64,000 bases of DNA. Source: Desulfobacteraceae bacterium (GTDB lineage Bacteria > Desulfobacterota > Desulfobacteria > Desulfobacterales > Desulfosalsimonadaceae). The notes below the pieces were generated by a model. That model made no database searches. It was not told the origin of the DNA and worked only from the letters and a program-made list of their open reading frames with translations. The stretch is from contig JABZFM010000011.1 of assembly GCA_014237465.1 (NCBI GenBank), forward strand, positions 62,001 through 126,000. The letters are read 5' to 3'. Each line of letters opens with the position of its first letter. Positions within the stretch are counted from its first letter, which is position 1. Shown piece after piece: positions 36,484 through 37,047 of this stretch. Made by a program: the position numbers and the translations under genes.

Positions 36484-37047
36484 GCGGTCAGTGCGATTGA
36501 TAAGCCGAATCCTGTTCCCGGTTTGAGTTACCTCTAACCGGACAATGATCATTCATCTGCGGATAACAGTTACCCGTCATCTCTTGCGACCTACCCGGGA
36601 GCTCGGACGGGCCGCCCTCAAGCACTCCCCTATTTGGTCTTGCACCGGGTGGGGTTTACCTAGCTTTCCCGGTCACCCGGGAAACTGGTGCGCTCTTACC
36701 GCACCGTTTCACCCTTACCCGACATAACAAACAGCTCAAAAGCTGATTCCAATACCGGGCGGTCTGCTCTCTGTTGCACTTTCCTTCACGTTACCGTGAC
36801 TCCATGTTATGGAGCACCCAGCCCTTTGGTGTTCGGACTTTCCTCCGGTAAGGGATGCGGAAAAAACCAATATACCCGGACTGCGCCGGATTTTGGTTCA
36901 TATTCGAGGCGCATCAAGGGGAGCATATCAGGATATATGACCTTTGATGCAACAAAGAATACGGGCCAAAAGACAAGCAAGATGGGTATATTCGTTTTTT
37001 CCGCATCCCTACTAAATACCGGCGATCATTTTAACCACACCAACCGC
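36484..37047 (-). ncRNA. rnpB: RNase P RNA (type A) with large P3 extension
   Basis: The catalytic RNA that matures tRNA 5' ends. Conserved elements on the minus strand include GAGGAAAGTCC (36835-36845), GCAACAGAGAGCAGACCGCC, GGTAAGGGTGAAACGGTGCG and ACAGGATTCGGCTTAT near the 3' end. P1 is formed by GCGGTTGGTGTGGTT (37033-37047) and AATCGCACTGACCGC (36484-36498), 15 pairs including G-U. P2 is formed by AATGATC (37024-37030) and GATCATT (36544-36550). Between P2 and GAGGAAAG lies a P3 arm of about 168 nt (36850-37017), giving 564 nt against a usual 350-400. The start is placed at the base of P1, so it may extend a few bases. Confidence 0.93.
36850..37017 (-). repeat. Hairpin inserted in or extending P3 of rnpB
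   Basis: The outer arms GGGATGCGGAAAAAAC and GTTTTTTCCGCATCCC, continuing to ATATACCC/GGGTATAT, form a stem of about 27 pairs with one mismatch. Inside is a second hairpin with GTATTCTTTGTTGCATCAA and TTGATGCGCCTCGAATATG. The ATTCTTTGTTGC and GCGCCTCGAAT cores match repeat A2. CCGGTA/TACCGG close the P3 base at 37017-37022 and 36845-36850. Confidence 0.75.

Follow-up and report, generated by a model that had tools for sequence, protein, structure and literature searches.

The gene of RNase P RNA (rnpB), the catalytic RNA by which tRNAs are trimmed, in a 64,000-nt stretch of the genome of a Desulfobacteraceae bacterium, a relative of sulfate reducers (contig JABZFM010000011.1; the whole stretch is referred to as the window) carries a long hairpin within helix P3, which raises the question of how such an arm came to lie inside a catalytic RNA and how it has persisted there. 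The reading that we regard as highly probable is that a complete 158-bp MITE-like element inserted into P3, was tolerated as a peripheral hairpin, was inherited and was lost in some lineages. On this reading, the locus would offer a clear example from nature in which an essential catalytic RNA has taken up a transposable element, and one can still see the site of insertion, the target duplication, dispersed relatives of the element, another carrier species and a probable remnant.

The RNase P RNA gene and its ends

The Rfam covariance model for class A RNase P RNA, the check suggested by the earlier note, recovers the core of the gene on the minus strand (RF00010, 272.3 bits against a gathering score of 100; window 36485–36883), and no further RF00010 match is present in the genome of the window (G000; 5.09 Mb, 99.96% complete). 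The earlier note had placed rnpB at 36484–37047; the gene is real, as both the model and the pairing of P1 indicate, and its ends need a slight correction, as P1 reaches 37049 (Table 1). Measured over 36484–37047 the gene is 564 nt long; without the element and a single 3-nt flank it would measure 403 nt, and its P3 would be short.

The two strands of P1 form 16 of 16 pairs, G-U pairs allowed. The strand upstream of P3 likewise makes P1, with at most two mismatches, in all ten testable genes of the same genus, the window's included, a count outside which the gene of genome G004 falls, as its 3′ end lies off its contig. The 5′ end set by Rfam at 36883 was rejected, since P1 is mismatched there and the real 5′ half of P1 lies upstream of the insert, as in relatives. 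Presumably the insert exceeds the length that the model can accommodate, so that P1 was placed inside it; a covariance model can thus be led to misplace P1 by a long rod in P3. The position of P1 also settles a point on which the earlier note had made its reading depend, a mature RNA beginning near 36860: P1 puts the start of the RNA upstream of the arm.

Table 1. Features of the rnpB locus, in coordinates of the window.
Feature	Position	Strand	Basis or remark
rnpB, RNase P RNA class A	36482–37049	−	RF00010 and P1 pairing
P1, 5′ strand	37033–37049	−	pairs with 36482–36498; upstream of P3
P1, 3′ strand	36482–36498	−	partner of 37033–37049
Native P3, 5′ strand, GCCGGTA	37017–37023	−	fold; short P3 of relatives
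Native P3, 3′ strand, TACCGG, continuing into the conserved AGGAAAGTCCG	36842–36850	−	fold
Palindromic MITE-like element, GGGATGCGG...CCGCATCCC, 158 bp, within P3	36852–37009	−	end-to-end alignment with 14 dispersed copies
Left 3-bp flank, GTA (TTA in G004), copy of the target duplication, one base off	37010–37012	−	
Right 3-bp flank, TTA (TTG in G004), second copy of the target duplication	36849–36851	−	
Promoter-like TTGTCA-17-TACAAT, upstream of P1	37070–37098	−	consensus match alone, 10/12

The region around the promoter-like sequence holds four candidate sites of that grade, as compared with 1.7 in shuffles. Just downstream of the rnpB 3′ end lies a palindrome (36383–36440) with 17-nt arms that are 94% complementary and with a terminator-like site (36436–36452); this palindrome is possibly another repeat element, acting as terminator. 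Elsewhere in the window, an 18-bp inverted repeat (39263–39302), perfect and with a loop of 4 nt, is located near a tRNA gene, and the Plastid-ycf2 Rfam model matches the antisense of a tRNA gene (39127–39200) below its gathering score, likely as a cross-match.

The hairpin in P3 and its element family

The earlier note had described a hairpin of about 168 nt (36850–37017) in P3. The hairpin is real, and the element within it takes up 158 bp, the remainder being native P3. Its outer stem was rightly called nearly perfect: the 27-nt arms (36851–36877 and 36984–37010) are 96% complementary. When the fold of 36484–37047 is predicted, 61 pairs form within the element and none between the element and the rest of the RNA. 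An assembly error is argued against by the presence of the insertion in two separate assemblies and by its location well inside a 155-kb contig in G000.

Within its own genome, the core of the insert has three further matches (E 2.8e-9 to 4.9e-6), and full-length dispersed copies in sister genomes match it with E values of 2.7e-51 to 4.9e-63. The insert's own subfamily has 14 dispersed copies, 12 in G003 and 2 in G004, which span the full length of the query at 86–93% identity; the query used for these sister copies was 36853–37010, one base off the GGG..CCC frame, and the rnpB copies of G000 and G004 show 11 differences in either frame. In G000 the rnpB copy is the sole member of its subfamily and is accompanied by a few cousins at 72–74%. 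When searched with a cousin copy, the family is found in 7 of the 11 same-genus genomes, and the insert itself as query likewise gives matches in 7 of 11, among them opposite-strand self-matches owing to the palindrome.

Of 30 copies from the cousin search, 24 had clear ends and were used to analyze them, the other six being set aside; the 24 include the window's copy and mix several subfamilies. These 24 copies are 155–160 bp long, with a length of 158 bp in 16 of them. Inverted ends of the type GGG/GGA..CCC/TCC, with 9–14 of 14 end bases complementary, occur in 24 of the 30 copies, a result that is partly circular, as the ends were placed by pairing. Equal direct 3-mers flank 13 of the 24 copies (inverted 3-mers, 1 of 24), compared with a mean of 7.3 upon flank shuffling (P 0.0044). 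Within the insert's own subfamily, they flank 10 of the 14 dispersed copies and inverted ones none (mean 4.4, P 0.0002). Every equal flanking 3-mer is TAA or TTA (TWA). As judged from these flanks, the TWA 3-mers are a target duplication and not part of the inverted ends, and the alignments identify the insert as a member of a MITE-like family that is dispersed and duplicates a 3-bp TWA target. At rnpB the duplication is imperfect, one base off in both carriers (Table 1).

At 19 dispersed loci belonging to several subfamilies, 8 of them to the insert's own, no Rfam RNA gene overlaps the element, and at 13 of the 19 no reading frame of at least 100 aa overlaps it by more than 40 bases. The element has no match in plasmids at E 1e-5, and a 27-base core word has no exact match in viral contigs. 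Between G003 and G004, the dispersed copies of the subfamily are 0.904–0.949 identical (mean 0.93, 24 pairs) despite the fact that these genomes share only 51% of their 4-fold sites, and the family therefore appears to have moved recently and across species.

Shared core words had led the earlier note to connect the insert with the dispersed A elements of the window. The A element is a palindrome (31265–31366) whose core words are common to the rnpB insert: ATTCTTTGTTGC and GCGCCTCGAAT have two matches each in the window, both exact, one in the insert and one in the A element (31276–31355), in scans that allowed one mismatch and for which about 0.9 matches per scan are expected by chance. Over the whole genome, GCGCCTCGAAT occurs at five places, which are the insert and four A-kind palindromes as read by eye, 31265–31366 among them. 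The words are thus shared as had been claimed, and the insert belongs to another family with a related core. The A element was rejected as the source of the insert because, although the core words are common, ends and arms differ along the element; the cores of the two families look related.

Distribution among relatives

The full arm is absent from 9 of the 11 same-genus genomes, one of the nine being G003 with its probable remnant. In the eight genomes without element or remnant, P3 spans 13–26 nt from CCGG to CCGG, with empty sites such as CCGG-TTAAAT-CCGG in G005 and CCGG-TTGAAT-CCGG in G009, and the span in G003 is 37 nt. An rnpB match was obtained in 52 genomes, from which 50 stretches were read, the partial matches of G023 and G040 being left out; among the 48 stretches with a readable P3, a long P3 occurs in G000 and G004 only. 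The earlier note had named relatives that all share a long P3 as a case against its reading, a case that fails in the order as a whole, where an exact pattern for a P3 of 131–191 nt fits 2 of 389 genomes. The short-P3 pattern, up to about 30 nt, fits 178 of the 389, and the remainder, G003 included, fit neither pattern. Over the contigs of 84,980 species, the exact long-P3 pattern returned one record, JAQIBZ010000323.1 of Desulfobacteraceae bacterium GH14, apparently G004 itself, in a scan that misses divergent borders and may leave out G000 itself.

In G004 the insertion lies at the identical site and in the identical orientation, with the left flank TATTTA as in G000, a flank missing from all eight same-genus genomes that have neither element nor remnant. 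The rnpB gene of G003 reads TATTTA-TGGATGCGGAAGCGCATCC-TTCA, which resembles the ends of the element with the middle absent and is a probable deleted remnant of it. Sequence comparison establishes the identity of the element, the site of its insertion, the short P3 in its absence and the common site in G004. The central proposal of the earlier note, that a mobile palindrome entered P3, is borne out by the sister copies, the 3-bp duplications, the relatives without a full arm and the short P3 left upon removal. A different arm, at another place in rnpB, is enlarged in G007, where it exceeds its length in most of the genus by about 39 nt.

Origin of the insertion

We propose that a non-autonomous palindromic element with a TWA target entered the loop of a short P3 hairpin in the only rnpB gene of the genome. 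Its self-complementary transcript would lengthen P3 outward into a rod of about 60 bp that forms no pairing with P1, P2 or the core; the ribozyme should stay functional, so that the insertion would have escaped purging. Both the site in the second species and the remnant in the third would fit a single, older event after which other lineages lost or trimmed the element.

A single origin is what we infer from several lines of evidence that do not all point the same way. The species tree, which was built from 36 reading frames (8 of 44 dropped as overlapping) by a quick search and in which several forks are weak, groups G003 with G007. The carrier genomes G000 and G004 as sister species are ruled out by the AU test (p 1.3e-4 for their clade), and placing G002, G005 and G010 together was also rejected (p 1.2e-4). 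As the carriers do not form a clade, a single vertical insertion requires several losses. Concerning the copies themselves, those in the rnpB genes of G000 and G004 are 0.930 identical; the G004 rnpB copy is 0.865–0.899 identical to the 14 dispersed copies, and the G000 rnpB copy is about equally close to its best dispersed copy (0.930). Both rnpB copies are placed outside the 14 dispersed copies with values of 84/97, below the mark that the tool sets for a firm fork, and the clade test for the two rnpB copies gave an AU value of 0.517, by which a clade of the two is neither supported nor contradicted. At four sites, both rnpB copies share the states of other subfamilies, that is, older states; at sites 28, 45, and 115 these are found in none of the 14 dispersed copies, and at site 134 in two. 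No derived change private to both rnpB copies was found. The common flank, site and orientation, the closeness of the G004 copy to that of G000 and the older states speak for a single insertion; the patchy spread and the equally alike dispersed copies of G003 and G004 speak against it.

These opposing points are those on which repeated independent insertion would build, with the P3 loop as a hot spot of the family that was hit separately in G000, in G004 and perhaps in G003. Such a history would account for carriers that form no clade, and it agrees with the recent movement of a family whose dispersed G003 and G004 copies are as alike as the two rnpB copies. We nevertheless consider it unlikely: target, orientation and TATTTA flank are identical, the flank being absent from the eight element-free genomes, and the states at sites 28, 45, and 115 are missing from every dispersed copy. 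Furthermore, the copy nearest to the one in the G004 gene is that of G000, and none of the 19 dispersed loci overlaps an Rfam RNA gene. Patchiness would also follow from horizontal transfer, where recombination between species carried over either rnpB with the element or the P3 stretch alone, and the insert is indeed 93.0% identical between G000 and G004 as opposed to 58.5% at 4-fold sites. However, the rest of rnpB is 0.907 identical between the two carriers, compared with 0.930, 0.927, and 0.922 for the non-carriers G002, G010, and G005, and the neighbouring zinc-ribbon gene shows no excess likeness either (0.790 versus 0.846 for G005). A transferred tract must therefore be confined to P3, and we regard transfer as distinctly improbable.

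Two further readings dispense with an insertion or with a working gene. P3 length varies among bacteria, and an ordinary P3 grown long by stem extension would need no mobile element; the chance of this is close to nil, given dispersed 158-bp copies that align end to end with the insert and the short P3 of the eight same-genus genomes and of G003. It is very improbable, too, that rnpB is a decayed pseudogene or is dispensable through another RNase P, a reading for which no supporting evidence was found in these genomes. Its core scores 272 bits and is the single match in the genome, and G004 also has the insertion, with a core 90.7% identical. PIN_5 (PF08745), which we take to be the family of the protein-only HARP enzyme, has no match in any of the 11 same-genus genomes, as against matches in 4 of 14 control genomes. 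Since the core is intact and PIN_5 is absent, the RNA is presumably needed by the cell.

Constraint and processing of the arm

Comparison of G000 with G004 gives 11 differences over the 158 sites of the insert (7.0%), a divergence of 9.3% for the rest of rnpB, with the missing 3′ end of the G004 gene left out, and one of 41.5% for 4-fold sites (3597 in number). Had the element entered before G000 and G004 split, this low divergence would amount to constraint; a later entry or a transfer would leave the figure with little meaning. Seven base pairs are altered between the rnpB copies of G000 and G004, and only four of them remain paired; covariation therefore backs a function of the arm little. 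Scored on the structure of the window's copy, the dispersed copies keep 54–58 of 60 pairs (one keeps 56 of 59). In folding energy the window's copy is the lowest of 16 (−71.2), and the rnpB copy of G004 is the sixth lowest.

We infer that the RNA is active and that its rod is either retained in the mature molecule or processed. As a long double-stranded RNA, the arm would be a plausible target of RNase III, and a cut would leave a ribozyme in two pieces joined by P1 and P2. The long P3 rod might by now be under selection, for example as a protein-binding arm or as the RNase III-cut joint of a two-piece ribozyme. This possibility is suggested by an insert that changes as slowly as the core and keeps older states lost by the moving copies, and we hold it to be rather unlikely. 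The locus suggests in any case that the P3 of bacterial class A RNase P RNA is able to bear a rod of about 60 bp.

Comparison with known systems

The intervening sequences of bacterial rRNA are hairpins in peripheral loops of an essential RNA. The rnpB arm resembles them in this respect, its excision being hypothetical here. Repetitive DNA within an RNase P RNA gene is also said to have been described by Vioque in 1997, reportedly as STRR repeats in rnpB of heterocyst-forming cyanobacteria. By the title of that work, STRR are short tandem repeats, in contrast to the dispersed palindrome found here.

The MITEs ERIC, Correia and RUP duplicate TA. The family of the insert differs from them in duplicating the 3-bp TWA, and its rnpB copy sits in a structural RNA gene. 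Such MITEs are characterized in PMC10969869 as short and dispersed, with inverted ends and a usually intergenic location, and transcripts of Correia elements are described there as substrates cut by RNase III.

The open-licence literature searched yielded no description of this element, nor of any MITE located in helix P3 of rnpB in desulfobacteria. As far as that literature goes, the kind of event is already known, and the element, the host group, the P3 site and the visible insertion history are new. A close likeness is to the Rickettsia palindromic elements (RPE, 105–146 bp). The review PMC2229807, citing Ogata et al. (2002), states that RPE are present in the tmRNA gene and in that of RNase P RNA (M1), where they also place a palindromic mobile element inside an RNase P RNA gene. 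Compared with RPE by description in that source, the element reported here resides in another host phylum, is 158 bp long and shows TWA duplications.
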